From NCBI RefSeq assembly GCF_004363655.1, contig NZ_SNZH01000021.1, positions 1-64,000 of the forward strand: a stretch of 64,000 nucleotides of DNA, in the 5' to 3' direction. The stretch comes from Tahibacter aquaticus. Lineage in GTDB: Bacteria; Pseudomonadota; Gammaproteobacteria; Xanthomonadales; Rhodanobacteraceae. Numbering within the stretch: the first letter of the stretch is position 1; the number at the start of each line of letters is the position of its first letter. The notes beneath the pieces are model-generated. The model made no database searches, had not been told where the DNA came from, and was given only the letters and a program-made list of their open reading frames with translations. Positions 13,904 to 35,264 of this stretch are shown here, one piece after another. The translations under genes and the position numbers were made by a program.

Positions 13904-14308
13904 ATGACGAGCTTCACTATTGGCGAATTGGCCCGGCGGGCTGGCGTGGCCATTGATACCGTTCGCTACTACGAACGCGGCCACCTGCTGGCGCCCGCGC
14001 AGCGCTCAGCCTCGGGCTACCGGCACTACACGCAGACCGAACTCAAGCGCCTGCATTTCATCCGGCGCGCCAAATCCCTGGGCTTTTCGCTCGAGGACAT
14101 TCGAACGCTGCTGGCCTTGAGCGACAACGCCGACGTCGCCCAGGTCAAACGCGCTGCCATCGACAAACTTGCCGACGTCGATCAGCGCATCGCCGAGCTG
14201 ACCCGCATGCGCACCGGATTGCAAACCCTCATCACCGCGTGCCCCGGCCACGGCCGGGCAGACGCCTGTCCGATACTCAATGCCTTATCGCAGGAGGACC
14301 TGCCATGA
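13904..14308 (+). CDS. MerR-family metal-responsive regulator (CueR-like)
   Basis: The protein has 134 residues, typical of the family. The N-terminal winged helix has the canonical [10 protein letters not shown] long dimerisation helix follows. The C-terminal loop [14 protein letters not shown] carries Cys113 and Cys122, the position of the two-Cys metal site in CueR-type sensors, though here the Cys spacing is one residue longer than in CueR. A monovalent ion such as Cu(I) is likely, given the copper ATPase that overlaps its stop (ATGA at 14305-14308). The operator at 13840-13857 suggests self-regulation. Confidence 0.85.
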
Positions 14309-16734
14309 CCGCTCCATCTGAGAAACCCGCATGCTGTCACGCGCCATCCACGCCATCGCCCCCGGCCTCCGCGCCGGGCACCGCCGCAGCGTCGGCGGCC
14401 GGCCCCCACGGCGGGCATCATCCCGGCCATGCCAATGACCCCGCCGCGGGCGCCACGGCGGCGGCCGACCGCGATCCGGTCTGCGGCATGGCGGTCTCCG
14501 CGGACTCGCCCCACCACGCGCACCACGCGGGGCACGACTATCACTTCTGCTCAGCCGGCTGCCGTACCAAATTCGTGGCCGATCCGGCGCGCTATCTGTC
14601 CACCCAGGGCATCCCTGACGCGTCTCGGGCACCGCCGGGCACGACCTACACCTGTCCGATGCACCCGCAGATCGTCCAGGAGAGCCCAGGCGCCTGCCCC
14701 ATTTGTGGTATGGCGCTCGAACCGGTCATGCCCAGCGAGGACGACAGCGAATTGCCGGAGCTCACCGACTTCCGTCGGCGCTTCACCTGGACGCTGCCGC
14801 TGACGCTCGTCGTGCTGGGCCTGGCAATGCTCGGTCATCGCCTGACGGGGTTGTCGACCGAGCTGCGCACGGGCCTGGAACTCGTCTTGGCCACGCCCGT
14901 GGTGGTGTGGGCGGGCTGGCCGTTCTTTGAGCGCTGCATCGCGTCCATCCGCCGTCGCAGCCCCAACATGTGGACGTTGATCGGTATCGGCGTAGGCGCC
15001 GCGTACGGCTACAGCGTGGTCGCGACGGTGGCGCCGGGACTTTTTCCCCATTCCTTCCGGGAGCACGGGCGGGTCGGGGTGTATTTCGAAGCCGCGGCCG
15101 TCATCGTATCGCTCACCTTGCTGGGGCAATTGTTGGAACTGCGAGCGCGCTCGGCCACATCGGCCGCGATCAAGGCACTCCTGCGCTTGGCGCCGAAGAC
15201 TGCCCGTCGCATAAATTCCGATGGCAGCGAGGACGATGTCGCGCTCGAGCAGGTCCATCCGGGCGATCGCCTGCGCGTGCGGCCCGGCGAAAAAATCCCC
15301 GCGGATGGGACCGTGCTCGATGGCCGCTCAAGCGTCGATGAGTCGATGCTGACCGGGGAGTCCCTGCCAATCGAAAAAACGGTCGACGCGCGGGTCATCG
15401 GCGCCACGCTAAACGGGACCGGAAGCTTGGTTATTCGCGCCGACCAAGTCGGATCGGCGACCGTGCTTGCGCAGATCGTCCAGCTCGTTGCGCAAGCGCA
15501 GCGCTCGCGAGCCCCGATGCAGCGCATGGCCGACAAGGTCGCGTATTGGTTTGTCTTGGCGGTGTTGGCCGCTGCGCTAGCGACCTTTTTCGGCTGGGGA
15601 TTTTTCGGTCCCGAGCCCTCCTGGACTTATGCCGTGTTGAACGCCGTCTCGGTGCTGATCATCGCGTGTCCGTGCGCGCTGGGTTTGGCGACGCCGATGT
15701 CGATCATGGTCGCCACCGGGCGCGCCGCGCAGGCGGGCGTGCTGTTTCGTGACGCGGAAGCAATCGAACGGCTACGCACCATTGATACGCTCATCGTCGA
15801 CAAGACCGGGACCCTGACCGAAGGGCGCCCCACGTTCCGCGACGTGCTGGTCGTGCCAGGCTTCACTGCAAACCAGGTCGTGCAGTTTGCGGCGAGCCTG
15901 GAGCAGGGCAGTGAGCACCCGCTCGCATCGGCGATCCTGGCGGAAGCCAAACAACGTTCCCTCACCCTCGCCTCGGCATTGGATTTTTCCTCCGTTACGG
16001 GCCAGGGCGTCGTGGGACGTGTAAATGATCGCGCGCTGGCCTTGGGCAATGGCGCCCTCATGGCGCACGTCGGCGCTGACATGTCTGCCTTGGGTGACCG
16101 CGCGGATGCGCTGCGAGCGCAGGGCGCGACGGTGATGTTCCTTGCGGTCGACCGCCAGCTCGCCGGCGCCGTCGCCGTCGCCGATCCGATCAAGGCATCG
16201 ACACCCGCCGCCCTTTCCGCATTGCGCGAAGCAGGACTGCGCATCGTCATGGCGTCCGGTGACGCCGTGGCGACGGCTCAGGCGGTGGCCAAAACGTTGG
16301 CGATCGATGAGGTGTACGGAGAGATCAAACCGGCCGAAAAAGTCGCGCTGGTCGAACGGTTGAAGGCACAAGGCCGGCGGGTGGCGATGGCGGGCGATGG
16401 CGTAAACGACGCTCCCGCACTCGCCGCCGCCGACGTCGGCATCGCGATGGGAACGGGTACCGACGTGGCCATGTCGAGCGCCGCCGTCACGCTGGTCAAG
16501 GGCGACCTGGGCCGCATTTTGGAAGCGCGGGCGATTTCCAACGAGGCGGTGCGCAACATGAAACAAAACCTCGGTTTTGCGTTTTTGTACAATGCCCTCG
16601 GCGTGCCGATAGCGGCCGGCCTGTTCTATCCCGTCTTCGGCTGGCTCTTGAGTCCGATGATCGCGGCCCTGGCGATGAGTTTGAGTTCCGTCTCCGTGGT
16701 CACCAACGCGTTGCGCTTGGGCAAAACGCGTTGA
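14305..16734 (+). CDS. Cu(I)-exporting P1B-type ATPase with YHS and metal-binding domains
   Basis: The start at 14305 overlaps the regulator stop and has AGGAGG upstream, giving 809 residues. The N-terminus holds a His-rich stretch, then a YHS-like domain (DPVCGM, HFCSAGC) and a heavy-metal-binding module ([16 protein letters not shown]). The ATPase core has TGES, CPC at residues 455-457 in the sixth membrane helix, DKTGTLTEG with the phosphorylated Asp499, and [13 protein letters not shown] is the hallmark of Cu+ (P1B-1) pumps, which export copper from the cytoplasm. The classical N-terminal HMA domain is replaced by the YHS and metal-binding modules. Confidence 0.93.
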
Positions 16735-18961: not shown

Positions 18962-20368
18962 CTAGGCCGTCACTCGTCGCTGCCGGGGTGCGCGCCATCG
19001 CCGCCACAGCAGAAGTAACCCGGATACCGACAGGCACGTGCCCCCAAACGCGACGGCGATGAGCAGCGGATGGTTGAAGTTCTCGCGCGCACGATAGTCC
19101 ATGATATGCAGCATCCAGGCGATGTCAAAGAGCCTCCACACGCGATTGCGTCGCTCGACGATGCTACCGGTTTGCGCCGATACGTAAATCGTCGTCCGTA
19201 AATCGTCGTCGATTCGAACGCGCCAGAACCCACCTTCATGACCGCGCGTTTCCAAATCCGCGGCGGCGAGCCACTCCGGCGTTTGGAGGCGACCAGGACC
19301 TGCGTAGTCGGCTGCCACGGCTGAGTGTGCGACGGCGGCCGTGACGGGTTGCGGCACGCCGGTGTGCGCGTTGTAGCGGTACGCACCGGATGGTGTCGTG
19401 ACCACATAGACCGGGCCATCCACCGCCGTTTGAAAAGCAACGCTGCGGGCTTGGCCGGCATGATGCGCAGCGATCACGCTGGGCGCCAGCAGCGACGAAT
19501 AGTCGATGGCAGCGGCGGGGGCCGGCGGCCGAGCGTACGTATGCCCTTCAACCACCGAATGATCCAACAGGCTCATCGTCAATCCGCTACCCACCCAGAC
19601 GAGCAGCTGCGCCCCGATCGCCCATCCCGCCACCCGATGAATGCGCGTGCGCAAAGGACGTCGGGGCAACCGAACCGAGGGGACCGTGCGCGGCCGGCGC
19701 CGCGACACCGCGAGAAGTGCGGCACCGCTCAGAACAAAGGCCAGGGCGATGCCGGCAGCAATTCGCAGTAGCCAATTGTTAACGTTGCTACGTGTTGCAT
19801 AATCCATAATATGCAACATCCACAACGCGTCGAAGACGCGCCAGCCAGCGAAGCGTTTTGCCAGCAGTTCGCCCGTGAACGGCGAGTAGTACAGCGTCGG
19901 CGCGGAGGCGCCGTCAAACCTGACGCGCCACAACGGAGCGGGACGGCCGCTGACCTCACCCGGTGCTTTGTCGAGCCAATCGATCGATCGGATGGCGCGC
20001 GGGTGGGCAAAGCGCGCCTGTGCCAGGGTGCGCACCGCGGTCGCATCCAGCGGCGGGCGCGTAACGCCGGAAACCCCGTCAACCAACACGATCGCGTTGG
20101 GGCGATGCACCTCGTAGACCGTTTGCCCGAACAAGGTCTTCAGCGTAAATCGCATACTGTCGGGAAATTGCTGTTGGAGGTGAGCGGAGGAGACCACGGC
20201 CGTGGGCAGCACTACCCGCGCATCGGGCCAAACCCAGTGGTCGCCATGAATCCAGTCGATGGGTGCCGTGCTCATGTAGAGGCCGGATAGCATCCACAGC
20301 ACGAATTGAACGCCAATCAGCCAGGCCAGCCGGGAATGCCATAGTCGAATCAGGCGATGAGAGAGCAC
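18962..20368 (-). CDS. PepSY-domain membrane protein with internal duplication
   Basis: The protein has 468 residues and about four membrane spans (near 15-35, 195-220, 250-275 and 440-460). Each half ends with a similar segment: RVFDALWMLHIMDYATRSN in the first and RLFDIAWMLHIMDYRAREN in the second. The HIMDY core is present in both. This points to an internal duplication, as in PepSY-TM proteins, some of which act in siderophore or metal reduction. The periplasmic domains contain PepSY-like YNAHTG and YYSPFTG turns. It lies alone on the minus strand. Confidence 0.75.
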   Translation of the reverse strand: MLSHRLIRLWHSRLAWLIGVQFVLWMLSGLYMSTAPIDWIHGDHWVWPDARVVLPTAVVSSAHLQQQFPDSMRFTLKTLFGQTVYEVHRPNAIVLVDGVSGVTRPPLDATAVRTLAQARFAHPRAIRSIDWLDKAPGEVSGRPAPLWRVRFDGASAPTLYYSPFTGELLAKRFAGWRVFDALWMLHIMDYATRSNVNNWLLRIAAGIALAFVLSGAALLAVSRRRPRTVPSVRLPRRPLRTRIHRVAGWAIGAQLLVWVGSGLTMSLLDHSVVEGHTYARPPAPAAAIDYSSLLAPSVIAAHHAGQARSVAFQTAVDGPVYVVTTPSGAYRYNAHTGVPQPVTAAVAHSAVAADYAGPGRLQTPEWLAAADLETRGHEGGFWRVRIDDDLRTTIYVSAQTGSIVERRNRVWRLFDIAWMLHIMDYRARENFNHPLLIAVAFGGTCLSVSGLLLLWRRWRAPRQRRVTA

Positions 20369-21964: not shown

Positions 21965-23200
21965 ATGCTTACCATCGCCTCATTGCTATGCGCTCGATTA
22001 TCCGGTGGGATCGCAGGGATCATGACCATCGGCCACTGCGCCGCCGTGGCGATTCCAGAAACATCTGCACAGACGCCAGATGCGTCGGCATACCCAACCG
22101 CGGACGCGACGCTGGGCGAGGTGCTGTTTCCTAACGAGTCGAGCATGGCCGAGCAGATCAGCCTCGCGATCGAAGATACGATACGTCGCGACTACGCGCC
22201 CGGTAGTGCGCGACGCGACGCGCACCCCAAAGCCCATGGTTGCGTCAAAGCGGAATTTGCCGTCGCGGCCTCATTACCGAAGTCGTTGGTCCACGGCGTT
22301 TTCATTCCCGGAACCACGTACTCGGCATGGATCCGGTTTTCGAACGGCAACAAGGACGCGACACGCGCTGACATCAAAGGCGATGCGCGTGGCATGGCGA
22401 TCAAGCTGCTCGACGTGCCGGGAAAGAAACTGCTCGATGCCGTTGATCAAGCGACAACGCAGGACTTCATTCTGATCAGCCACCCGGTGTTTTTTGCCAA
22501 CGATCCGAACCGGTATCTTTCACTGATCCGGGACGGCAGCAGTGGCGGAGTATTCGCGACACTGCGCATTCCTTTCGACTTGGGTTTTCGCGGTCTCATG
22601 ATCGCCCGCAAGACCGCCAGCAAGACCATTTCCAATCCGCTGCAAACACGTTACTGGTCCACCGTGCCCTATCAGCTCGGTGTGGGCGACGACCGGCAAG
22701 CCGTCAAGTACTCCGTCCGTTCCTGTGCAGCGACCTTGGACCCGATCCCGAAGAAGCCGGGCAACGACTATTTGCGTGGTGCGTTGCGCGCAAGCCTCGA
22801 AACGGGCGATGCGTGCATGGAGTTTTTGGTGCAACCGCGAACCTCACCGCGCATGGGCGTGGAAGACGTCATGACGGAGTGGGATGAATCCGATGCTCCG
22901 TCTTATCCCGTTGCGTCGATTCGCATTCCTCGACAGACGTTTGATACCCCCGAACAGAACGCCTTTTGCGAGGCGTTGTCATTCAACCCCTGGCACGCGC
23001 TGCCGGCGCACAAACCGCTCGGCGTGATGAACCGATTACGCAAAGTGATCTACGAACGGATAAGCCAAGTCCGGCATGCGATGAATGCGGTCGGAATGCG
23101 GTCGGCCATTCCGCTAGAATCAGCGACGGCTCTATCTACGGCGTCCCCGCCGCAGGCAATAGCGGTTCCTCCGCGACACGGGAGAATCCGTTCGCCGTAG
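21965..23200 (+). CDS. Catalase-family protein (heme-binding), exported
   Basis: The protein has 411 residues. AAAGGA lies eight bases before the ATG. The N-terminal 20-40 residues look like a signal. The chain has catalase-superfamily features: AHGCVKAEFAV, a heme-contacting region IRFSNGNKDATRADIKGDARG, DFILISHPVFFANDP, and LRASLETGDACMEFLVQP. Such small catalase-related proteins (SrpA-like) have peroxidase or lipid-related roles; the full catalase C-terminal domain is lacking. It precedes the lipoprotein and the electron-transfer module on the same strand, separated by 372 bases. Confidence 0.75.
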   Translation: MLTIASLLCARLSGGIAGIMTIGHCAAVAIPETSAQTPDASAYPTADATLGEVLFPNESSMAEQISLAIEDTIRRDYAPGSARRDAHPKAHGCVKAEFAVAASLPKSLVHGVFIPGTTYSAWIRFSNGNKDATRADIKGDARGMAIKLLDVPGKKLLDAVDQATTQDFILISHPVFFANDPNRYLSLIRDGSSGGVFATLRIPFDLGFRGLMIARKTASKTISNPLQTRYWSTVPYQLGVGDDRQAVKYSVRSCAATLDPIPKKPGNDYLRGALRASLETGDACMEFLVQPRTSPRMGVEDVMTEWDESDAPSYPVASIRIPRQTFDTPEQNAFCEALSFNPWHALPAHKPLGVMNRLRKVIYERISQVRHAMNAVGMRSAIPLESATALSTASPPQAIAVPPRHGRIRSP

Positions 23201-23572: not shown

Positions 23573-23983
23573 ATGAACACGCATTTGGAAGTTGAAACCA
23601 CGCAGCAAGGTATTCTGACATCGACGCGTCGTGCGAGATTGTGCCTGGTACTGGGCGCCGCACTCACCGTGCAGCTGGTAGCCGGCTGCGCCTCCAGCCC
23701 TACGTACCATCGGTACTTCATGCAGGGCCAAGTATTGTCGGTGGATGGCAATTCCCTGGTTGTGTGCGTCGGCTCGCGTGACGGCGCCCAGGTTGGCCAA
23801 GAGCTCGCCGTTATCAGAAATGTTGCCCAGGCGCCACAGCCGAAGTCCGGCGCCATCAATTTCCGGCGTGAGTCGATCGGAAAAGTTCGAGTAACGACAG
23901 TGCTTGATGAACACTATGCGAGTGCCGAAGTCCTCACGGGTAGTCCACGAACCAATGACGTGGTGGAGCTGGAACGTCAGTAG
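23573..23983 (+). CDS. Small periplasmic lipoprotein
   Basis: The ATG at 23573 follows GAAGGAAGG and gives 136 residues. The N-terminus is polar, then hydrophobic, ending in LVAGC, a lipobox, so the mature lipoprotein starts at that Cys. The rest is a beta-rich stretch with QGQVLSVDGNSLVVCV, VGQELAVIRN and GKVRVTTVLDEHYASAEVL; such folds occur in FlgT-like and other small periplasmic proteins. A truncated relative lies at 20702. It is 319 bases upstream of the reductase gene. Function unknown; it may serve the same redox module. Confidence 0.65.
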   Translation: MNTHLEVETTQQGILTSTRRARLCLVLGAALTVQLVAGCASSPTYHRYFMQGQVLSVDGNSLVVCVGSRDGAQVGQELAVIRNVAQAPQPKSGAINFRRESIGKVRVTTVLDEHYASAEVLTGSPRTNDVVELERQ

Positions 23984-24302
23984 CGCGGCTGGAGCGAGGC
24001 AGGGGCGATCGATTTCGTGGAACGGCTGTATTCAACCGGCGTATCAGCTCTCAAACGCCGCGGCGGTCGTCATCGTCGCAGCTCGCAGATCACCTCTAAC
24101 GCGCACGCAATTCTGCGGGCTGCTAAGCAGTGGCGGTTAGGTTTGCGTAGTACCCAGGTTCCGCGCAGACAATCCGAGTCGTATCGGTGATTCACCTGTT
24201 CAATGGCGCGGACCGACACTCCATGGTGCGGCGATTCACAGAGCTCGGCTCCGACTGTCCTTCAGCCGCTTAGGACCTGAACATCGACTAGGTGGTTGCA
24301 CG
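23984..24302. other. Intergenic stretch before the reductase
   Basis: About 320 bases with no supported gene. It probably holds the promoter of the reductase at 24303. No FNR-type site is visible within it. Confidence 0.3.
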
Positions 24303-26186
24303 ATGAAATTTGATGTTCCGACAGCCGCAACGCACTGCCAGTTCACCGCCGTCCTGTTGGCGGGGGTGTTGTTCTCGGTGTCGGTCGCGGGCCAAACACC
24401 CGACGAGCACGCGAGCCATCATCCCGCTCCCGCTCCCGCTGCCGGCATTCCGGCCGCCACTCCAGCGACTGGCGGAACTATGCCTGGTCCCGCTGCCACG
24501 GGGGGCGCCGGAATGATGGACGACATGATGCGTCAGATGGGGGCGCCACCGCGCAAGGAACTCTACCCCTCACTCATGGAGGTCGAAGCATTCACACCCG
24601 ACAAGCGACAGCAATTTGAACGGCTGGCTCGCGAGCGCATGAAATCGGGCACCGCGCTGATGTCATCGGGCCTGGAGAAGCTCAGCGCGCCCTCGTCAGA
24701 GCAAGATCTTCCGGCCATGCGGGAGGCCACCGCGCTTATGCGCCAAGGCGTCGTGCAATTCGACACGGGAATCTCCTCGCTCCAGGCAATCTCCGAAGGC
24801 AAACCGCCACGGGCAGTGGCCCTGGATTGGTTCAAGCAAAATATGAGTCTGTTGCCGAGTGCCGATATGCAGCGGCCGCACGGAATTTTCGGACTGTCCG
24901 GCTTTCACTACTTCACAATGTTCCTTCTGTTGGCATTTGCCGCCACCATGATCTGGATCAACCTGAAGAAGATGCAACGGGCTCAGGCACTCGCAGCCCG
25001 CCTCACACCACAACCGGGCGCGGTGTTGCCGGAGAGGACGCTCACGCCGGCCGCGCAGAGCATACCCCCGTCGCTCCTACCGGAAGATGCGCCGTCGAAA
25101 TCCAACGCGTGGACGGGGCTGCTGCGAGTAGTCCAGATCTTCGAGGAAAGCCCGAATGTCGTGACGTTGCGCCTCACCGATCCCTCGGGAGGCAGCCTGC
25201 CATTTCGCCACCTGCCGGGGCAGTTTGTCACCTTCACCGTCAAGCCCAACGACCAGATGGTGAAGCGCTCCTACACGATCGCCTCTTCACCCACGCGCCG
25301 CGACTATGTCGAGGTAACCGTCAAACGCGAGGAGCACGGGACGGTCTCCGGATTCCTGCACAGCGTGCGTGTCGGTGACACGCTGCAAACGACCGGGCCG
25401 TCTGGAAACTTTACCTTTGTCGGCGATGGCGCCAACAGCATTGTGCTCATCTCCGGCGGCGTTGGCATCACGCCGATGATGAGTGTTGTGCGCTACCTGA
25501 CGGATCGTTCCTGGCCGAGCGACATTTTTTTCATCTTTGGTTGTCGTGGAGAAAAAGATGTGATCTATCGCGAGGAGCTGGAGTACCTGCAGCGCCGACA
25601 TCCCAACCTGCATCTCGCCATCACCGCGATCGACGTGGCTTCTGCCGATTGGCCTTACGCCCGGGGAAACATCACGAAGGAACTGCTCAGCCAGGCCGTT
25701 CCACACATTGAGATTCGCCGAGTGCACTTGTGCGGTCCGAAACCGATGATGGACGCACTGAAGCCAGTGCTGATCGAATTGGGCGTGCCCCTCGAGCAGA
25801 TCAAGACGGAAATCTTCATCGGAAAGGAACGTCCGGCGACGCCCCCAACCCTTGCCGAAGGTGTCACGGGGTCGGAGCAATCCCAGCCGACTACCACTCC
25901 CGTCGAAGGCGCAGAGACCGCCGGCGTCGCGGTCGCGACATTTGCTCGTTCCAAGCGAACGGCGCTGTTCCCGCCCAGCAAGACCCTATTGGAAGTATCC
26001 GAAGACGTCGGCGTCAATATCGACTACTCCTGCCGCGTCGGCACGTGCGGCGTGTGCAAGGTCAAGCTGCTGAGCGGGAGCGTCACGATGGAGGTTCAGG
26101 ACTCGCTCGATGCGGCTGACAAGGAGAACAACATCATTCTCGCCTGCCAGGCGAAGACCCGCGGCGACGTCAGTGTCGACGCATAG
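24303..26186 (+). CDS. Membrane-anchored NADH:FAD:[2Fe-2S] reductase with periplasmic domain
   Basis: The protein has 627 residues in a multi-domain layout. Residues ~1-31 are a signal. About 32-200 form a Met/Pro/His-containing, helix-rich periplasmic domain. A membrane span lies near 203-222 (FTMFLLLAFAATMIWIN). The cytoplasmic part has a ferredoxin-NADP reductase-type core: FAD motif RSYTIASS (~322), NAD motif GGVGITPMMS (~384) and HLCGPKPMMDAL. The C-terminal plant-type ferredoxin domain has Cys577, 582, 585 and 615 as [2Fe-2S] ligands. It would pass electrons from NADH to the membrane. It precedes a cytochrome b-like gene and a multiheme cytochrome gene. Confidence 0.85.
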   Translation: MKFDVPTAATHCQFTAVLLAGVLFSVSVAGQTPDEHASHHPAPAPAAGIPAATPATGGTMPGPAATGGAGMMDDMMRQMGAPPRKELYPSLMEVEAFTPDKRQQFERLARERMKSGTALMSSGLEKLSAPSSEQDLPAMREATALMRQGVVQFDTGISSLQAISEGKPPRAVALDWFKQNMSLLPSADMQRPHGIFGLSGFHYFTMFLLLAFAATMIWINLKKMQRAQALAARLTPQPGAVLPERTLTPAAQSIPPSLLPEDAPSKSNAWTGLLRVVQIFEESPNVVTLRLTDPSGGSLPFRHLPGQFVTFTVKPNDQMVKRSYTIASSPTRRDYVEVTVKREEHGTVSGFLHSVRVGDTLQTTGPSGNFTFVGDGANSIVLISGGVGITPMMSVVRYLTDRSWPSDIFFIFGCRGEKDVIYREELEYLQRRHPNLHLAITAIDVASADWPYARGNITKELLSQAVPHIEIRRVHLCGPKPMMDALKPVLIELGVPLEQIKTEIFIGKERPATPPTLAEGVTGSEQSQPTTTPVEGAETAGVAVATFARSKRTALFPPSKTLLEVSEDVGVNIDYSCRVGTCGVCKVKLLSGSVTMEVQDSLDAADKENNIILACQAKTRGDVSVDA

Positions 26187-26207
26187 AGGCATGGGAGAGC
26201 CGCAGTC

Positions 26208-26969
26208 ATGACACGCCAACGGACCGCGCTGAGCACGCTGATCGTGCTTCTGCTTGTCTTGTGGGCGGGCTTCATCGTTCATCGCTCGCCGCGTTTTCCG
26301 GGCAGTTTGACGGGCGGCGTACTCGCCGTTTCCGGTGCCAGCCTCATCGTTGTGTTTTCGGTTTTCTATTCGGCGGTCAAGCGGTTCCCCGCGTTAAGGC
26401 AAGCGTTCAGTAAATATCTGTCCATGCAACAACTTCTCAGCGTGCATGTGTATACCGGAGCGCTCGGGGCGATCCTGGTTTTGCTGCATACGGGGCATCG
26501 GTTTGAAAGCAACCTCGGCATCGCCTTGACGAGCAGCATGTTGTTCTCGGTGCTGAGTGGTTACGTAGGTGGGCATTTGCTCGGACGCGTATCAGTTGAG
26601 CTTCGTGAAAAACAGAGTCTTCTGGTGCAGCTTGAAACGGCTTACAACGCGGCCGTGGATGAACTCGCGCGCAAACCAGAATCGCCAATCGCGCCGGTCA
26701 TACCTGATAGTCCCTTTTCATTCGCACGAATGCGTTCCGCAATCGCTCCGAAGATTTCCACCTCGGGCTCAGAGCGCGCTCCGGGTGACGCAGCCGGAAT
26801 AGCCAGCTCGATAGCCGAGCTTGAATACTCGATCCGCTCTCATGAACGCGTCAAGCGCCTTTCTAGTCGCTGGCTAGTGCTGCACATCGGGACCTCGCTC
26901 GTGTTCTACGTTCTGCTCGCATTGCACGTCTGGGCATCGATTCATTTTGGATTGAGGTGGTTTCAGTGA
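26208..26969 (+). CDS. Membrane cytochrome b-like protein
   Basis: The protein has 253 residues with about five hydrophobic segments: near 8-23, 38-56, 82-100, 104-125 and 230-248. Histidines in VHVYTGALGAILVLLHTGHRF lie in the first pair, and WLVLHIGTSLVFYVLLALHVW in the last; both are on membrane helices in positions suitable for heme b. A soluble stretch (about 130-225) with a coiled-coil-like ELEYSIRSHERVKR lies between. It follows the reductase by 21 bases, so it probably carries electrons from the reductase across the membrane. Family name not assigned. Confidence 0.6.
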   Translation: MTRQRTALSTLIVLLLVLWAGFIVHRSPRFPGSLTGGVLAVSGASLIVVFSVFYSAVKRFPALRQAFSKYLSMQQLLSVHVYTGALGAILVLLHTGHRFESNLGIALTSSMLFSVLSGYVGGHLLGRVSVELREKQSLLVQLETAYNAAVDELARKPESPIAPVIPDSPFSFARMRSAIAPKISTSGSERAPGDAAGIASSIAELEYSIRSHERVKRLSSRWLVLHIGTSLVFYVLLALHVWASIHFGLRWFQ

Positions 26970-26979
26970 GGCCGCGCAC

Positions 26980-27798
26980 ATGAAAAGCGCGCGCCTGCTG
27001 GTCGCTCTTCTGGCGAGTGCGATCGTGGCGTTTGCGCTGTGGCAAGCGGTCGCGACGCCCGATCGGCTAACTGCCCTTCAGCGGCAGGCAAGCCCAGGCG
27101 ACCTGTCATCGGCGCATGCCGCTTTGCAGAACCATTGCGAGGCCTGTCACACGTCGGTCGAAGGGCCCGACGATACCAAATGCATCGGTTGTCACGCGAA
27201 CAACACGCGTATCTTGCAGCGACAACCGACGGCGTTCCACGTGAGCATCGGCAACTGCGCGCGTTGTCACATTGAGCATCAGGGCAAGTCCGCGAACTTG
27301 AGGCAGATGGACCACACGACATTGGCGCGCGTGGGCTTGCAGCGACTTGAAGCGATGGGGACGCAAGGCGACGTGCAAGGTCGAGCCGACCTGCGGCACT
27401 GGTTGCAACAGCACCCCTCAGCGACATCACACACGCCGAGTCATCCGCAGGTCAGTCCCTTGGAGATGACCTTGAATTGCCGGGCGTGTCATGCGACGAA
27501 AGATCCTCACTCCGGGCTATTTGGCCAAGAATGCGCAAGCTGCCACGCCACGACCGAGTGGACGCTCGCACAGTTTAGACACCCGTCACCGGGATCCTTC
27601 GATTGTGCGCAATGTCACCAAGCTCCGCCCAGCCATTACATGATGCACTTCCAGATGATCTCCAAGAAAATTGCGGGTCAGGAGGATGTGCAGGTCTCCC
27701 AGTGCTGTGGGCCGGCCCAAGTCAACCAGTGTTATCGCTGCCATCAAACGACATCCTGGAACGACATCAAGGGGGTGGGATGGTACAAGCACCACTAA
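26980..27798 (+). CDS. Periplasmic seven-heme cytochrome c
   Basis: The protein has 272 residues with an N-terminal signal or anchor (1-25). Seven CxxCH motifs are visible: CEACH, CIGCH, CARCH, CRACH, CASCH, CAQCH and CYRCH. Free histidines between motifs offer distal ligands. Such multiheme proteins carry electrons in the periplasm. It starts 10 bases after the cytochrome b-like gene, so the two are co-transcribed with the reductase. The terminal acceptor is not evident; the neighbours suggest a link to copper or peroxide handling. Confidence 0.85.
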   Translation: MKSARLLVALLASAIVAFALWQAVATPDRLTALQRQASPGDLSSAHAALQNHCEACHTSVEGPDDTKCIGCHANNTRILQRQPTAFHVSIGNCARCHIEHQGKSANLRQMDHTTLARVGLQRLEAMGTQGDVQGRADLRHWLQQHPSATSHTPSHPQVSPLEMTLNCRACHATKDPHSGLFGQECASCHATTEWTLAQFRHPSPGSFDCAQCHQAPPSHYMMHFQMISKKIAGQEDVQVSQCCGPAQVNQCYRCHQTTSWNDIKGVGWYKHH

Positions 27799-28101
27799 CG
27801 CCACATATAGAACGCGGCACCAACTATTCGAGCAATGTCTGTGTCCAGGGCGCTGGTGTTCATTCGCCGTGTGCTAAGAAACGGACATCGGAAACAGGTT
27901 CCTGCACATTCTTTGCGCGCATCCGCTGACGTGCTTTGGAGTCACTCGTGAAACGGACCGGCAACCTCGATCTGGCGAGTCGCTCGAGCGTTTTCGTCGA
28001 TCGTGTCGCAAGTTGATGAACGCGCTGATAAACGCGTGGATAAGTACCCAAAGCTGAGTTAGAGATACTTTAGCAGCACCCTTCTTTTACGAGGACTACC
28101 C
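27799..28101. other. Intergenic stretch
   Basis: About 300 bases with no supported gene. It should contain the promoter for the Met-rich protein at 28102. No terminator with a T-run or clear operator was seen. Confidence 0.3.
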
Positions 28102-29031
28102 ATGAAACTCCATTCAAGCAATCGAATAGCGGCGCTGACAAGTGGCGCGATGCTGTGCCTGGTCATCGCATCAGCGGGTGCGCAAACGCCGGACCCCGCA
28201 TCAACTCACGCCCAGCATGCGGCGAGCAATTCACCCGCCGCGTCGACGGAAACGGCACAGATGCAACAAGAGTTGGCGAAGCTTCGTGATCAAATGCGGC
28301 AACTCGATCAGCGGATGCAGGCGTCTTCGCCGGCTAAAATGCCAGCGAGCGGCGCAATGGCGCCACCCGCAAAGGCCGGGGCGGCGATGGGCGGCATGGC
28401 GAAAATGGAAAACGAGATGGCCATGCCAAAACCCGGCATGAATTCCGCATCCAGCATGCCCAAGCCCGCTGCCAGCACAGGGATGGGCATGATGCAGATG
28501 ATGGAGAGCATGCATCCAAAAATGGGCGACGGCGGCATGATGGGAATGGGGGCGATGGGCGGCATGAACAGCCCCGCCGCGATGGCGACGCCGTCAGCGC
28601 TACCCGGATTTCCTGGGCAGTCCCACGTGTATCACATCGGCGCCACGGACTTCTTTCTTGATCATCCCCAGCACATCGCCTTGACGACGCAACAACAACA
28701 GACACTCGCGCAGCAAAAACAACAGTCGCTCCTCAAACAAAGCGAATTGCAAAAGCAGATCGATGCCGCCGAGCAGGAATTGTGGCAGCTCACCGGTGCG
28801 GATCAGCCGCAGATCGCGGACATCGAGAAGAAAGCTCGCCAGATCGAGCGTCTGCGTGGCGATCAGCGCGTCGCCTTCATTCGCGCGGTGGGTGATGCCG
28901 GAAAGGTGCTCACCGACGAACAGCGCAAACAGCTCACGGGCCTTGCGCCCGCCGCCTCGATGGCCGATCCAGCTTCGATGCCCATGCAAGATGACAACAT
29001 GCCCAAGCCCGACAGCATGGGCGACATGTGA
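28102..29031 (+). CDS. Met-rich Spy/CpxP-like periplasmic protein
   Basis: The protein has 309 residues and a signal peptide (1-27). The first half is rich in Met, Pro and Gly (MGGMAKMENEMAMPKPGMN), typical of copper-binding tracts. The C-terminal half is helical with two LTxxQ motifs (LTTQQQQTL and LTDEQRKQL), the signature of Spy/CpxP chaperones and CnrX/ZraP-type metal proteins. It is 109 bases upstream of copA on the same strand. A role as a periplasmic copper-binding chaperone is likely. Confidence 0.7.
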   Translation: MKLHSSNRIAALTSGAMLCLVIASAGAQTPDPASTHAQHAASNSPAASTETAQMQQELAKLRDQMRQLDQRMQASSPAKMPASGAMAPPAKAGAAMGGMAKMENEMAMPKPGMNSASSMPKPAASTGMGMMQMMESMHPKMGDGGMMGMGAMGGMNSPAAMATPSALPGFPGQSHVYHIGATDFFLDHPQHIALTTQQQQTLAQQKQQSLLKQSELQKQIDAAEQELWQLTGADQPQIADIEKKARQIERLRGDQRVAFIRAVGDAGKVLTDEQRKQLTGLAPAASMADPASMPMQDDNMPKPDSMGDM

Positions 29032-29140: not shown

Positions 29141-31018
29141 ATGCCACCCGAAATTTTCGGCATTGAAGCCGACGGGCCGTTTAAGCTGTCCCGCCGACAC
29201 TTCGTACAAGGACTTGCCGCGGGCGGCGCCATTGCCAGCTTGGGGCTCTGGCCGAGGCAGGCCTGGGCGCTTAAATCGCCGGGCCAACCGAATGTGCTTT
29301 CTGGCACCGAGTTCGATCTCTCGATCGGCGAGACGCCGATGAATTTCACCGGTCGGACCCGCACCGCAATCACCGTGAACGGCTCGCTGCCAGCGCCGGT
29401 TCTGCGCTGGCGCGAAGGCGACAACGTGACCCTGCGGGTCTCCAACCGATTGCCACCGGGCTCGATCCACGGTCAAGACACCTCCATCCACTGGCACGGG
29501 ATTTTGTTGCCCGCGAACATGGATGGCGTGCCGGGTCTGAGCTTTAACGCAATTGCTCTTGGTGAGGCTTACCTCTACCGGTTCCAGGTCCGCCAAGGCG
29601 GCACGTACTGGTATCACAGTCATTCGGCATCGCAGGAACAGGGCGGTCTCTACGGCGCGATCATCATCGACCCGCTCGAAGCCGAACCGTTCACCTACGA
29701 TCGCGACTACGTCGTCCTGTTGTCCGACTGGACCGACCTCGATCCCACCGCATTGTTCTCGCGCCTCAAGAAAATGCCCGGGTACGACAATTACTACAAA
29801 CGCACCGTTAGTGATTTTTTCCATGACATGCAGTCCAAGGGACTGGGTGCCACGATCGAAGACCGCAAGGCGTGGGGAAAAATGCGGATGACGCCGACCG
29901 ATATGTCAGACGTCAACGCCAACACCTACACCTATTTGATGAACGGAACGACCGCGCTCGGCAACTGGACCGGCCTGTTCCGCTCCGGCGAGAAAGTGCG
30001 GCTGCGTTTTATCAATGGGTCTGCGATGACCTATTTCGATGTGCGAATTCCCGGTCTGAAAATGACCGTGGTCGCCGCTGACGGGCAATACGTGCACCCG
30101 GTCACCATCGACGAGTTCCGAATAGCCGTGGCCGAGACGTTCGATGTCATTGTGGAACCGTCCGGGCAAGACGCTTTTACCATCTTTGCGCAAGACATGG
30201 GCCGCACCGGTCATGTCAGCGGCACGCTGGCCGTACGCGAAGGCTTGCGCGCGCCCGTGCCTGCCGTTGATCCCCGCCCGATCATGACCATGGCTGACAT
30301 GGGACACGGCGGGATGGGTGGCGGCCACGACATGAGCCGCATGAATCCTGGCGATAGCGCCACGATGACTCAGGATGTGCCGGCCACGGCCAGGCAACCA
30401 GCCGCTACCACGATGTCCGGAATGCCAGCTGGTCATGACATGGCATCGATGAGCGCAGGATCGACGTCCGGCATGGGCGGCAGCGCCAGCATCATGCAGG
30501 GCCACCCGGCTAGTGAGAACGGCAATCCTCTGGTCGACATGCAGACGATGTCTCCGCGCCCGAAGCTGGACGATCCGGGCATGGGTCTGATGAACAATGG
30601 ACGTCAGGTGTTGACCTACGCGGCGCTCAAAAGCGCATTCGACGATCCCGATGGCCGCGACCCCGGCCGCGACGTCGAACTGCATCTGACGGGACACATG
30701 GAGAGGTTCGCCTGGTCGTTCGATGGCCTCAAGTTCTCCAGTGTCGAACCGCTGCGACTGACTTACGGCGAGCGCATGCGCATCGTGCTGGTCAACGACA
30801 CGATGATGGCCCACCCGATCCATTTGCACGGCATGTGGAGCGACTTGGAGGACGAACAAGGCAATTTCCATTTGCGCAAGCACACCATCGACATGCCGCC
30901 GGGCAGCAAGCGCACCTATCGTGTTCGAGCCGACGCATTGGGACGCTGGGCCTACCACTGCCATCTGCTTTACCACATGGAGGCAGGCATGATGCGGGAA
31001 GTGAGGGTCGAGGAATGA
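29141..31018 (+). CDS. copA: Copper resistance multicopper oxidase CopA
   Basis: The protein has 625 residues, the normal CopA length. LSRRHFVQG near the N-terminus is a Tat signal. The four copper motifs are present: HWHG (His117/119), YWYHSHS, HPIHLHG and YHCHLLYHM. Between the second and third cupredoxin domains is a Met/His-rich segment (HGGMGGGHDMSRMNPG and following), which binds copper in CopA. The stop overlaps the copB start (ATGA at 31015-31018), giving a classical copAB operon. Two other multicopper oxidases lie at 9511 and 56070. Confidence 0.95.
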   Translation: MPPEIFGIEADGPFKLSRRHFVQGLAAGGAIASLGLWPRQAWALKSPGQPNVLSGTEFDLSIGETPMNFTGRTRTAITVNGSLPAPVLRWREGDNVTLRVSNRLPPGSIHGQDTSIHWHGILLPANMDGVPGLSFNAIALGEAYLYRFQVRQGGTYWYHSHSASQEQGGLYGAIIIDPLEAEPFTYDRDYVVLLSDWTDLDPTALFSRLKKMPGYDNYYKRTVSDFFHDMQSKGLGATIEDRKAWGKMRMTPTDMSDVNANTYTYLMNGTTALGNWTGLFRSGEKVRLRFINGSAMTYFDVRIPGLKMTVVAADGQYVHPVTIDEFRIAVAETFDVIVEPSGQDAFTIFAQDMGRTGHVSGTLAVREGLRAPVPAVDPRPIMTMADMGHGGMGGGHDMSRMNPGDSATMTQDVPATARQPAATTMSGMPAGHDMASMSAGSTSGMGGSASIMQGHPASENGNPLVDMQTMSPRPKLDDPGMGLMNNGRQVLTYAALKSAFDDPDGRDPGRDVELHLTGHMERFAWSFDGLKFSSVEPLRLTYGERMRIVLVNDTMMAHPIHLHGMWSDLEDEQGNFHLRKHTIDMPPGSKRTYRVRADALGRWAYHCHLLYHMEAGMMREVRVEE

Positions 31019-32139
31019 ACGCCCTGATCGCTAAGACCAACGCGCTTCGCGTGGGCTTGCTGAGCGTAATCTTCGCACTGGTCGTGCAACCACGCGTTGG
31101 CGCTTCGCAAACGATAGACCACTCTCAAATGCAGATGCCCGCGGAAAAGCCAGCGTCCGCACAAGATCCCGAGCGCAGAAGGTCCGCTGACCCGCCCGCC
31201 GAACCGAATTCGAGCGGGACAAACATTCCCGCGTCGGCAATCGCTCCAGCGATGCAACACGGTTCGAGGAGCGCTGAACCGACGTCCGTACCGCAGGCCA
31301 AGGCGATCGATCATTCGGCGATGGGCCATGCAACGGGCACGACGTCCACCGAAACTCCGCAATCGCAGGACACTCTGATCACGAATCACGCGGCCATGGA
31401 GCACGACCCAGCGACGATGCCGACCGAGCCGCTCACGCCGATCCCTGAGTTGACGGATGCCGATCGCACGGCGGCATTTCCACCAGTCGACGGACACACG
31501 CTCCACGACAATACGATCCAGTACTTCGTGTTGCTGGACCGTCTGGACACGTGGGACGCGGATCCCGGTACGGGCGTCGAATGGGAAGGTCAAGCGTGGG
31601 TTGGCACCGACCTCAATCGCTTGTGGCTGCGCAGCGAAGGCGAACGGATCGACGGCCGTATCGAGCGTGCCGATCTGCAGGTGCTGTACGGTCGCAGTGT
31701 GGCCCGCTGGTGGGACGTGGTCGCCGGTATCCGCCATGATTTCAAGCCAGGCGCTTCTCAGGACTTTGCGGCCTTTGGCATCGTCGGGCTCGCGCCGTAC
31801 AAATTCGAGGTTGAGGCTACGGCCTATGTCGGCCAGTCCGGCCAGACGGCGGTGCGTTTCGAGGCCGCGTACGAAACCCTGCTGACCAACCGTTTGATCC
31901 TGCAGCCGCTGATCGAGGTCAACGCGTACGGCCAGGATGATGCGCGCCGCAGCATCGGCTCGGGCCTTAGTACCGTCGAGGCCGGACTGCGTTTGCGCTA
32001 CGAGTTCACTCGCAAGTTCGCTCCCTATGTCGGCGTGGTCCGCGGGCGCGCCTTCGGTCGAACCGCCGATTTCCGGCGCGCCGATGGCGAACGCATTGAC
32101 GAAACCCGCATCGTTGCCGGGCTCCGCATGTGGTTCTGA
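31015..32139 (+). CDS. copB: Copper resistance outer-membrane protein CopB
   Basis: The start at 31015 overlaps copA, giving 374 residues. It has a signal, then a long linker with Met/His (DHSQMQM, DHSAMGHA, NHAAMEHD), then the CopB beta-barrel part from about residue 155: FVLLDRLDTWDADPGTG, WVGTDLNRLWLRSEGE, VAGIRHDFKPG and a C-terminal aromatic VAGLRMWF. CopB works with CopA in copper tolerance. The family is well supported. Confidence 0.93.
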   Translation: MNALIAKTNALRVGLLSVIFALVVQPRVGASQTIDHSQMQMPAEKPASAQDPERRRSADPPAEPNSSGTNIPASAIAPAMQHGSRSAEPTSVPQAKAIDHSAMGHATGTTSTETPQSQDTLITNHAAMEHDPATMPTEPLTPIPELTDADRTAAFPPVDGHTLHDNTIQYFVLLDRLDTWDADPGTGVEWEGQAWVGTDLNRLWLRSEGERIDGRIERADLQVLYGRSVARWWDVVAGIRHDFKPGASQDFAAFGIVGLAPYKFEVEATAYVGQSGQTAVRFEAAYETLLTNRLILQPLIEVNAYGQDDARRSIGSGLSTVEAGLRLRYEFTRKFAPYVGVVRGRAFGRTADFRRADGERIDETRIVAGLRMWF

Positions 32140-32330: not shown

Positions 32331-33068
32331 TTGCTCATTCCAGCCGAAGTTGTGTTTCTGCTCGATGTCGACAACACGCTGCTCGATAAGGATCGTTTTG
32401 TCGCCGACCTTACGTCACAGCTGGATCGTGCCTTCGGAATGCAGGAGCGTGAGCGATATTGGGCGATCTATGCTGATCTGCGCGGCAAACTGGGCTACGC
32501 CGACTATTTGGGCGCACTGCAGACGTTCCGCATCGGCATAGAAACGGACCCAGCACTGCTGCAAATGTCGAAGTTCCTGCTCGACTATTGCTTCAGCGAG
32601 CGACTGTATTCCGGCGCTCTTGCCGCTGTCGAACAGCTGAGTCGATGGGGGACGACCGTAATCCTTTCAGATGGCGACATCGTGTTCCAGCCTCGAAAAA
32701 TCATGCGATCCGGTCTGTGGGATGCCACGGGTGGTCGGGTCTTGGTCTACCGACACAAGGAGCAAATGCTCGACGTCGTTCAACGGCTCTTTCCTGCTCG
32801 GCATTTCGTCATGATCGACGATAAGCCCCGATTGCTCGCTGCCATGAAGCCGATAATGGGCGACCGGCTAACGACCGTGTTTGTCCAGCAAGGTCATTAC
32901 GCCGCCGAAGCAAAGAGCGTCGCCATCGACCCCACCCCCGACGTGACCATCGAACACATCGCCGATCTGCGCCGCTTTGCGATGTCCGATTTTCATGCCA
33001 CAGAGGCGTCCATTGTAGGTGCACGTACCCAGCAATTTCCCGGTTCGACATCGGCGGAGCAGGCATGA
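32331..33068 (+). CDS. HAD-superfamily hydrolase
   Basis: A TTG start at 32331 follows GAGGAGAG and gives 245 residues. The catalytic DVDNT motif (Asp12, Asp14) opens the HAD fold, with LSDGD as motif II and IDDKPR as motif IV. The substrate is unknown. The stop overlaps the transaldolase start (ATGA), so the enzyme probably serves the same sugar-phosphate module, perhaps as a phosphatase. Confidence 0.8.
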   Translation: MLIPAEVVFLLDVDNTLLDKDRFVADLTSQLDRAFGMQERERYWAIYADLRGKLGYADYLGALQTFRIGIETDPALLQMSKFLLDYCFSERLYSGALAAVEQLSRWGTTVILSDGDIVFQPRKIMRSGLWDATGGRVLVYRHKEQMLDVVQRLFPARHFVMIDDKPRLLAAMKPIMGDRLTTVFVQQGHYAAEAKSVAIDPTPDVTIEHIADLRRFAMSDFHATEASIVGARTQQFPGSTSAEQA

Positions 33069-34210
33069 AACCGACTCTACAATTACACAATCTCGGTCAG
33101 AGACTGTGGCTGGACAACATTACCCGCGAGATGCTGGATGACGGCAGTTTGCGCCGTTATATCGACGATTTCTCGATCACGGGCCTGACGTCGAACCCCA
33201 CCATCTTCGACGGCGCGATCGGCGGCGGTAGCGCCTATGACGACGGCATTCGCGCCAAAGTTCACAATGAAAAATCTCGGGAAGCTGTTTTCACGGAGTT
33301 GGCGCTGGAGGATCTGCGCCGTGCGGCGGATTTGTTCCGCCCCGTGTTCGAGGCGAGCCGCCATGTCGATGGATGGGTCTCCATGGAAGTCTCGCCGCTG
33401 CTTGCCCACGACACCGATGGCAGCATCGACGCCGCGCGGCTGATCCACCAGCAGGCCGATCGCCCGAACTTGCTGGTGAAAATTCCTGGCACGCCGGAAG
33501 GAATTCCAGCGATTGAGGCCTCGATTTTTGCGGGCGTGCCCATCAATATCACTCTGCTCTTCTCCCGCGAGCAGTATCTCGCCGCCGCCGAGGCCTATCT
33601 GCGCGGCATCGAGCGGCGAGTCGATGCGGGGCTTGACCCGCGCGTGGGCTCGGTCGCGTCGCTGTTCATCAGTCGCTGGGACGCAGCAGTCCAGAACAAG
33701 GTGCCTGCGGAACTGCGCAACAAACTCGGAATTTCGATCGGCCAGCGCACCTATCGAACCTATCGCGAGCTGCTGGCTTCGGCGCGGTGGCGAAAGCTCG
33801 CCGAGGTGGGGGCACTTCCTCAGCGCCTGCTCTGGGCGAGTACAAGAACTAAAGACCCCGCGGCTTCTGACACCCTCTATATCGAAGCGCTCGCCGCGCC
33901 AGACACGATCAACACCATGCCCGAGAAAACCTTGCATGCTTTTGCGCAACGTGGGGTGCTCAGGGGCGCAATGGCAGCGGACGGTGGCGACGCCGAGGCC
34001 ATACTGGCGCGCTTCGCACAGGCCAACGTCGACATCGATGCGTTGGCGATCCAATTGCAGCACGAGGGTGCGCAATCGTTCGTCAAATCCTGGCAGCATC
34101 TGCTTCAGCGCATTGCCGACAAGGGTGCCGCGCTGGGCAGCGCTGGCGAGAAGACCGCTGGCGAAATTCAGCGCCGGCAAAGAAGCCGGAGGCCTGGTCG
34201 CAATGGTTAG
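33065..34210 (+). CDS. tal: Transaldolase
   Basis: The protein has 381 residues. TGLTSNPTIFDGAI and the Lys of LLVKIPGTPEG, which forms the Schiff base, are characteristic, as are VPINITLLFS and VGSVASLFISRWD. The enzyme moves a three-carbon unit between sugar phosphates in the pentose phosphate pathway. It overlaps the HAD gene and lies opposite the glucoamylase remnants. The last ~25 residues are basic and may be a local extension. Confidence 0.92.
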   Translation: MKPTLQLHNLGQRLWLDNITREMLDDGSLRRYIDDFSITGLTSNPTIFDGAIGGGSAYDDGIRAKVHNEKSREAVFTELALEDLRRAADLFRPVFEASRHVDGWVSMEVSPLLAHDTDGSIDAARLIHQQADRPNLLVKIPGTPEGIPAIEASIFAGVPINITLLFSREQYLAAAEAYLRGIERRVDAGLDPRVGSVASLFISRWDAAVQNKVPAELRNKLGISIGQRTYRTYRELLASARWRKLAEVGALPQRLLWASTRTKDPAASDTLYIEALAAPDTINTMPEKTLHAFAQRGVLRGAMAADGGDAEAILARFAQANVDIDALAIQLQHEGAQSFVKSWQHLLQRIADKGAALGSAGEKTAGEIQRRQRSRRPGRNG

Positions 34211-34608: not shown

Positions 34609-34917
34609 ATGGCAATTCCGAAGCCAGAGCGATTCTGGCAACAGCACGTTGATACGTGGCGTGAGAGTGGCCTGACGCAGAAGCAGTACATCAAGCGGCA
34701 CGGGCTCAATGCGATGACACTGGCGAAGTGGAGCAGCGTGCTGCAGCGTCGCTTGCGCGCGACGCCGGGTCAGGCGCTGGTGCCTGTTCGTGTCGTGGGC
34801 GAACAGGTCCCAGCGTCGGCGATCGAAGTGCGGCGGGGCGCGCTGCGTCTTTTGGTGCCGGTGGGAACGGACCCGCACTGGGTGGCTGCGCTGCTGCGCG
34901 AAATGCCCGCATGTTGA
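34609..34917 (+). CDS. tnpA: IS66 accessory protein TnpA
   Basis: The ATG at 34609 gives 102 residues. WQQHVDTWRESGLTQKQYIK is the helix-turn-helix region of IS66 orf1 proteins, which help transposase bind DNA. Its stop overlaps the tnpB start region (ATG at 34911), indicating coupled translation. Confidence 0.85.
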   Translation: MAIPKPERFWQQHVDTWRESGLTQKQYIKRHGLNAMTLAKWSSVLQRRLRATPGQALVPVRVVGEQVPASAIEVRRGALRLLVPVGTDPHWVAALLREMPAC

Positions 34918-35249
34918 GTCCGACGTCATGGTGGATTGCGGTCGAACCGATCGACCTGCGTCGCGGCATGGATGGATTGCTGACGACGATCGCGGCGCAG
35001 TTTGGACACGATGGGTTGGCCGGTGGCGCGTACGTATTCCGCAATCGCAGTGGTACGCGCATCAAGGTGATCTGCGCGGATGCGCACGGCGTGTGGATGT
35101 GCGTTCGACGCTTGCGCGAAGGTCGATTCGTGTGGCCGCGTCGCAGCGATCAGGTGTGTGAGATTGACGCGCAGGCGTTTGCCTGGCTATGCACCGGTGT
35201 CGATTGGCATCGCTTGTGCGCGAAGCCTCTGGCCGGCGAACTGGTGTGA
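34911..35249 (+). CDS. tnpB: IS66 accessory protein TnpB
   Basis: The protein has 112 residues and matches IS66 orf2: PIDLRRGMDGL, YVFRNRSGTRIKVI and GFVWP-like GRFVWP. It is required for IS66 transposition but its exact role is unknown. The ATG at 34911 overlaps the end of tnpA. Confidence 0.9.
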   Translation: MLSPTSWWIAVEPIDLRRGMDGLLTTIAAQFGHDGLAGGAYVFRNRSGTRIKVICADAHGVWMCVRRLREGRFVWPRRSDQVCEIDAQAFAWLCTGVDWHRLCAKPLAGELV

Positions 35250-35264
35250 CTTTACTATCGACAC

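Follow-up and report, generated by a model that had tools for sequence, protein, structure and literature searches.

In NADPH oxidases (NOX), membrane helix 6 leads into the FAD domain. The hemes of NOX2, a protein of the ferric reductase superfamily, are described as held by histidines 101 and 115 in transmembrane helix 3 and histidines 209 and 222 in transmembrane helix 5 (PMC3591440). Membrane cytochromes of the DUF4405, MsrQ and PepSY types, as described in the sources cited, serve flavinylated proteins, siderophore reduction or methionine-sulfoxide reductase (PMC11334425, PMC8238504). CcoG is a cupric reductase with two tetranuclear Fe-S clusters, whose donor is given as unknown (PMC7558416), and RclA is a Cu(II) reductase that protects against hypochlorous acid with intracellular copper (PMC7527725); unlike the system considered below, neither is described there as a heme chain from NAD(P)H to the periplasm. 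Here, a stretch of 64,000 nucleotides from Tahibacter aquaticus (contig NZ_SNZH01000021.1, positions 1 to 64,000; hereafter the window) was analyzed for an operon of three neighboring open reading frames (ORFs) on the plus strand, genes 1, 2 and 3 (24303–27798), that encode a putative, apparently uncharacterized transmembrane electron conduit. The reading that we favor, with a probability of roughly 0.6, is that of a split conduit resembling NOX and ferric reductases, which would run from NAD(P)H to the periplasm in one inner-membrane complex and serve periplasmic copper stress, most likely by reducing Cu(II), an activity that it would share with CcoG and RclA.

A previous reading of these letters alone (the sequence-only reading) had placed the three genes here with gaps of 21 bases between genes 1 and 2 and 10 bases between genes 2 and 3, and the ORF positions bear this out. 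It had also named beforehand a survey of co-occurrence as the test on which it could fail. A scan for gene 3 of 84,980 species genomes gave 388 matching stretches, the best 80 of which constitute the loci used here, a choice that favors close relatives; Legionella contributes eight of them and Dyadobacter three, a single Planctomycete and a single cyanobacterial bin contribute two each, and two Nitrospira bins share identical proteins. Genes 1 and 2 were found upstream of gene 3 and on the same strand in 76 of the 80 loci, both gaps measuring at most 200 bp in 72 of these 76 complete loci. Three of the four incomplete loci (L076, L093 and L103) lie near a contig end, and the fourth, L061, has gene 3 without genes 1 and 2 within 9 kb. 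When gene 2 was used as the seed, 398 genomes sampled from the window's phylum yielded seven that matched at E ≤ 1e-20, the window's own among them, and genes 1 and 3 flanked gene 2 in all seven, so that the earlier expectation of co-occurrence held with either seed. A plasmid search with gene 1 returned 48 records with at least 80% query coverage, and profile searches identified the three genes in order in seven plasmid regions, from Pontibacter, Legionella, Methylocystis, Alteromonas, Sphingobium, Bradyrhizobium and Variovorax. In a tree of genes 2 and 3 (79 rows, with a long-branch warning), 12 phyla were represented by record titles, which are the submitters' own and in some cases those of bins, and the interleaving of their groups suggests, without proving, that the operon was transferred between phyla. 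The rows nearest to the window belong to Acidobacteriota and Bacteroidota; its own fork is weak (91/49), and the surrounding set of 14 rows reaches 99/92. Combined, these results support the three genes being a real, conserved functional unit, which, going by record titles, occurs in at least 12 phyla.

In the Legionella anisa plasmid copy (L010), gene 2 occupies two frames (8599–9358) and the copy may be broken; in L015, a second fragment like the end of gene 3 (11213–11404) lies downstream of an intact operon.

Conservation was assessed in sets that were filtered by length and coverage and include the window (gene 1, n = 60; gene 2, n = 75; gene 3, n = 86), the filter dropping DUF547 fusions, contig-end pieces and split copies of gene 1. 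Gene 1 showed three Pfam domains over cut-off, FAD_binding_6 (3.8e-14), NAD_binding_1 (4.9e-21) and Fer2 (4.5e-14), as the sequence-only reading had proposed, and its cluster cysteines (577, 582, 585 and 615) were kept in 60/60 sequences; together, these features identify an FNR-type reductase with a plant-type ferredoxin domain. The reductase is preceded, in this order, by a hydrophobic N-terminal segment, an HxxHH motif, an MxxMMxxM motif, a membrane helix carrying H202 and a linker. The hydrophobic N-terminus and a second hydrophobic segment at residues 194–214 correspond to the signal peptide and membrane span recognized earlier; a positive stretch follows the second segment and, judged by this positive C-terminal side, the helix would run from outside to inside. 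H202 was kept in all 60 sequences. The periplasmic domain, previously noted as containing methionines, turned out to be more specific than that: HxxHH was found within the first 90 residues of 59/60 sequences (shuffled rate 0.0016), followed by MxxMMxxM within the first 200 residues of 50/60 (shuffled rate 0.0048). Such a conserved His/Met motif is of the copper-site type and may constitute a metal site.

Gene 1 was split over two or more ORFs in 15 of the 76 complete loci. For 11 of these, the break lay between the membrane helix and the FAD domain, in agreement with a protein that has one portion outside and another in the cytoplasm; the other four were broken inside the reductase (L041, L055 and L108) or at its edge (L037). 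Of nine printed junctions, five (L054, L073, L074, L097 and L050) showed a clean start of the second ORF in the proline-rich linker, and the second start is uncertain at the remaining ones (L045, L071, L081 and L105), where it was called farther upstream, within overlapping sequence. Some of the 15 split copies are likely to be frameshifts, insertions or assembly errors.

The AlphaFold2 model of gene 2 (mean predicted local distance difference test score, pLDDT, 85.5) contains five long helices, located at the five hydrophobic segments; helices 4 and 5 continue well beyond their hydrophobic residues and reach into an extended loop region. The paired helix histidines pointed out by the sequence-only reading were recovered in this model as H80 and H94 in helix 3 and H226 and H240 in helix 5, an H-x13-H spacing that occurs twice and sets the members of each pair 14 residues apart. 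All four were invariant in 75/75 family sequences (window included) and in 10/10 remote relatives (85/85). H25 was kept in 75/75 family sequences and 9/10 remote relatives, and H97 in 75/75 and 0/10, respectively; these two residues and H202 of gene 1 would be placed near the outer face.

Four heme histidines in transmembrane helices 3 and 5, spaced 13–14 residues apart, characterize the ferric reductase superfamily, and gene 2 carries histidines placed in this way. The operon resembles NADPH oxidases and ferric reductases (PF01794) in this H-x13-H arrangement, in an FAD/NAD domain that comes after an outside-to-inside helix and, presumably, in passing electrons outward from NAD(P)H in the cytoplasm. 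It differs from them in that gene 2 has five helices, the reductase resides on a separate chain, a [2Fe-2S] domain is added, the output is a heptaheme cytochrome c, and gene 2 shows no detectable profile homology. The gene 2 protein of the window passed no Pfam or NCBIfam cut-off and gave no match to PF01794 (Ferric_reduct) in the Pfam search; weak matches to that profile were obtained for 16 of 62 gene 2 members, with a best E value of 0.0012. Membership of the ferric reductase family by sequence was rejected, the profile tests being negative though the layout is alike. Gene 2 also resembles DUF4405, MsrQ and PepSY membrane cytochromes, in which an in-membrane heme b on conserved histidines, putative in the case of gene 2, feeds an extracytosolic carrier (PMC11334425, PMC8238504). 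DUF4405 proteins differ from it in having six helices, and the window's protein did not match DUF4405 (PF14358); the best of ten gene 2 members scanned scored 26.5 bits against a cut-off of 26.7, and weak matches were seen in 28 of 62 members, the best of which (E 6.4e-07) may pass the cut-off. MsrPQ was discarded as an assignment since gene 2 lacks a PF01794 match, whereas MsrQ belongs to PF01794 and has the molybdopterin protein MsrP as its partner; the one PF01794 match of the window's genome lies on another contig, adjoining an ORF recognized by eye as MsrP-like. Gene 2, which in the window exceeds no Pfam cut-off, represents a membrane family whose members are likely electron carriers. 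In five loci (L064, L068, L072, L085 and L087), gene 2 bears an additional C-terminal domain of about 290 residues, which is DUF547 in L072, looks alike by eye in L064 and was judged by length alone in the other three.

The count of seven CxxCH motifs given for gene 3 by the sequence-only reading was confirmed, and no sequence among 20,000 shuffles reached it (mean 0.07). Of 80 named homologues, 79 contained seven motifs and one contained six. The motifs and a match to Cytochrome_C7 (PF14522) just over its cut-off (26.0 versus 24.8 bits) place gene 3 among the multiheme c-type cytochromes of the c7/c3-like kind; Cytochrom_c3_2, with 24.6 bits, fell just under its cut-off of 25. The seven motifs and ten further non-motif histidines were each kept in at least 99% of the 86 sequences, ten being a surplus over the seven that would suffice as second heme ligands. 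CcmE, part of a c-type cytochrome maturation system, is encoded in the window's genome. A promoter and terminator scan of 23900–28150 gave 0 promoter-like sites (1.2 in shuffles) and 8 terminator-like sites (3.9 in shuffles, standard deviation 2.3), the latter mostly inside genes by their coordinates, and was not used.

Downstream of gene 3, the window encodes a Met-rich Metal_resist-like protein, CopA and CopB (Table 1).

Table 1. Positions of the operon, its predicted functional elements and nearby metal-related genes in the window (aa, amino acids).
Feature	Position	Strand	Basis
Gene 1, NAD(P)H:acceptor reductase subunit, 627 aa: signal peptide, periplasmic His/Met domain, one membrane helix, FAD and NAD domains, [2Fe-2S] domain	24303..26186	+	ORF; Pfam; conservation
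HxxHH motif of gene 1 (H36, H39, H40), putative metal site	24408..24422	+	Conservation versus shuffles
MxxMMxxM motif of gene 1 (M72, M75, M76, M79), putative metal site	24516..24539	+	Conservation versus shuffles
Membrane helix of gene 1 with H202	24897..24962	+	Hydropathy, charges, conservation; role inferred
FAD and NAD domains of gene 1	25128..25760	+	Pfam
[2Fe-2S] domain of gene 1, Cys 577/582/585/615	25947..26156	+	Pfam; Cys conservation
Gene 2, five-helix membrane protein, putative di-heme b carrier, 253 aa	26208..26969	+	AlphaFold2; invariant His
Gene 3, heptaheme c-type cytochrome, membrane-anchored or exported, 272 aa	26980..27798	+	CxxCH; Pfam
Met-rich protein, Metal_resist-like	28102..29031	+	Pfam 0.0013, under cut-off
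CopA multicopper oxidase	29141..31018	+	TIGR01480, 1033.8 bits versus cut-off 479
CopB	30835..32139	+	PF05275 2.3e-85; GTG start overlaps copA, true start probably later
Heavy-metal P-type ATPase, about 8 kb upstream of the operon	14239..16734	+	E1-E2_ATPase, HMBD, YHS

Neighboring genes of the 80 loci were grouped in single-linkage BLAST clusters, most of them named from one representative, within flanks of up to 9 kb on each side and often less; that of the multicopper oxidase was identified by eye and then checked by phmmer from the window's CopA. A multicopper oxidase was found near 33/80 loci by cluster and 32/80 by phmmer; among the 47 with full flanks, either method gave 26. In a subset of 20 genomes, which were the author's choice from the 80 loci, 11 had a multicopper oxidase beside the operon by both methods, against about 0.4 expected from 149 matches per 126.1 Mb and some 18.7 kb per locus if these genes are evenly spread over the genome; the matches are hidden Markov model pieces and outnumber genes, so this expectation more probably errs on the high side than on the low. 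Among the groups counted, the commonest neighbor was a Metal_resist-like homologue (40/80 loci by cluster and by phmmer, 26/47 with full flanks). A P-type ATPase of the window's kind was near 23/80 loci by cluster and 24/80 by phmmer, and CopB relatives were near 17/80 by phmmer from the window protein. At least one of five copper-type neighbor groups was present at 44/47 full-flank loci, a count that is less firm than that of the multicopper oxidase because the five groups include broad transporter families.

On the basis of these observations, the following path is proposed. Electrons from cytoplasmic NAD(P)H would pass through FAD to the [2Fe-2S] cluster in the cytoplasmic half of gene 1, then to two b hemes stacked across the membrane in gene 2, held by H80/H226 on the inner side and H94/H240 on the outer side, and finally to the heptaheme cytochrome c in the periplasm. 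The arrangement would be that of a NOX or ferric reductase cut in two, gene 2 supplying helices 1–5 and the single helix of gene 1 replacing helix 6, with the putative metal-binding periplasmic domain of gene 1 located before this helix. Its output would most likely be the reduction of Cu(II), or of another oxidized metal or copper-generated oxidant. The route from NADH to the periplasm had been put forward in the sequence-only reading, and the domain order and conserved ligands fit it. If the proposal is right, a line carrying electrons from the cytoplasm to the periplasm would be added to copper resistance, in the form of a widely shared unit that travels on plasmids and lies near copper-resistance genes.

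Gene order, domains, ligand conservation and linkage to copper genes are what the analysis shows; heme occupancy, complex formation, topology, electron direction and acceptor are inferred from them. Several points weigh against the proposal. Alignment by hhalign of gene 2 with 20 PF01794 proteins gave a probability of 0.6% (E 0.1), two reversed controls giving 0.2%, and Foldseek of the gene 2 model against the PDB returned nothing at E ≤ 0.001, b561 ranking 10 (E 1.3) and SpNOX 27 (E 2.3), where long cytoplasmic helices may mask a match. The structure model of gene 3 was too poor for a fold search (mean pLDDT 56.8). As to copper, 16/80 loci, and 3 of the 47 with full flanks, had none of the five copper-type groups, and a multicopper oxidase was absent from the available flanks of 47/80 loci and from 21/47 with full flanks. 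A pure copper role is weakened by recurrent neighbors of other kinds, namely glucose-6-phosphate dehydrogenase (G6PD; 15/80), glutamate dehydrogenase (16/80) and glycogen-binding CBM48 proteins (20/80), and by the Alteromonas copy, which adjoins and shortly precedes NiFe hydrogenase genes; linkage to copper genes does not name the substrate. Moreover, if a reductase makes Cu(I) next to an enzyme that oxidizes it, a futile cycle could result.

The diversity of neighbors, with hydrogenase, G6PD and glutamate dehydrogenase among them, is what speaks for the same conduit delivering electrons to a non-copper acceptor, be it peroxide, an oxidized metal of another kind, some organic oxidant or a general pool of electrons in the periplasm. 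Against it stand the His/Met motif of gene 1 and the copper-type neighbors at 44/47 full-flank loci, and we consider it unlikely. Copper and peroxide had both been suggested as acceptors by the sequence-only reading; copper is the one favored by the motif and the multicopper oxidase neighbors, and peroxide lost ground. The sole point for the latter is a catalase-like protein encoded upstream of the operon in the window (21965–23200, plus strand), relatives of which were found near 0/80 loci (phmmer E ≤ 1e-8; other peroxidase families not searched). A PepSY_TM membrane protein also lies upstream (18962–20368, minus strand), and its relatives, too, were near 0/80 loci by phmmer.

The frequency of multicopper oxidases, together with the position of copA shortly downstream of gene 3 in the window, would also agree with a conduit that feeds this oxidase, electrons going from NAD(P)H through heme b and the heptaheme cytochrome c to CopA and O2, thereby lowering oxygen or sustaining turnover of the oxidase at times of Cu(I) shortage. 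The loci devoid of a multicopper oxidase in their available flanks argue against such a task, and we know of no CopA that accepts electrons from a cytochrome c, which makes this alternative improbable.

Inward flow, in which a periplasmic donor such as H2 would reduce gene 3 and the complex would make NAD(P)H, draws on the location of the Alteromonas copy shortly upstream of NiFe hydrogenase genes. For Alteromonas macleodii, a gene list orf1/cyt/orf2/hynD/hupH is given, with orf1 and cyt upstream of hynD and treated as hydrogenase accessory genes (PMC3102683); judged by the gene order of the L012 copy, these two probably correspond to genes 2 and 3. According to the same source, they were unneeded for maximal HynSL activity in Escherichia coli, a result that counts against inward flow while testing activity and not electron routing (PMC3102683). 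With no hydrogenase among the window ORFs scanned, inward flow appears very unlikely. That the three are separate metal-stress genes sharing an operon, with no electron path among them, draws on the three-protein complex being a prediction and is hardly credible, given a gene order that, going by record titles, is retained across at least 12 phyla, cofactor types that form one continuous path and remote relatives in which gene 2-like and gene 3-like proteins occur together with different reductases using NAD(P)H or FAD.

The favored conduit to periplasmic copper also seems to be new. The sequence-only reading knew of no described system with this gene set, and this agrees with the top matches in the open PubMed Central literature (subscription papers and preprints being outside this scope), among which no description of the three-gene system was found, with a reservation for orf1 and cyt of Alteromonas. 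An Alteromonas copper island is reported to hold hydrogenase genes, and the word cytochrome is absent from the main text of that report (PMC8478169). Tentatively, and at slightly less than even odds, the operon may represent a class of NAD(P)H:heptaheme-c oxidoreductases that has not been described before and has spread horizontally. Built around a new family of membrane di-heme b proteins, this class would be dedicated to reducing metal (copper) in the periplasm of bacteria from at least 12 phyla and would form one branch of a broader set of 'membrane b + multiheme c' modules.

Two other modules bear on the last point. One (L116, 1420–6977), in the window's own genome, combines a 947-aa cNMP-binding/Pyr_redox (FAD)/4Fe-4S protein, a 302-aa relative of gene 2 and a 560-aa cytochrome with ten CxxCH motifs; a family of nine of the 302-aa protein aligned with gene 2 at an hhalign probability of 98% (E 6e-14), and related genomes repeatedly contain gene 2-like frames some 300 aa long. 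The other (L035, 140–2813), from a genome of the window's family, has a shorter FNR/Fer2 reductase devoid of the periplasmic domain, a gene 2-like protein and a cytochrome with ten CxxCH motifs. In view of these modules, the pair of membrane b and multiheme c proteins looks like a reusable exit line, joined to differing reductases. Two loci at first suspected of being additional copies in the window's genome, L004 and L007, were both put aside; the ORFs of L004 were read by eye as sulfite-reductase-type proteins.

The operon lies in a stretch of lower G+C content (16000–56000; 57–64% versus 66–71% outside) that looks like an island. This stretch contains the copper genes, a heavy-metal P-type ATPase (45413–47887), IS66 genes (34728–36872) and a phage-type integrase (49966–50937); a second heavy-metal P-type ATPase (from 14239) is situated just beyond its edge. 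Genes for a transaldolase, a 6-phosphogluconate dehydrogenase and proteins like phosphoribosyl pyrophosphate synthase and pyrimidine phosphorylase are also found in it (33065–34210 and 40032–43941). A possible role for these sugar-phosphate genes is the supply of reductant and, if the proposed conduit is real, such a supply might explain the sugar-phosphate dehydrogenases of regions of this kind, including the G6PD genes counted above.

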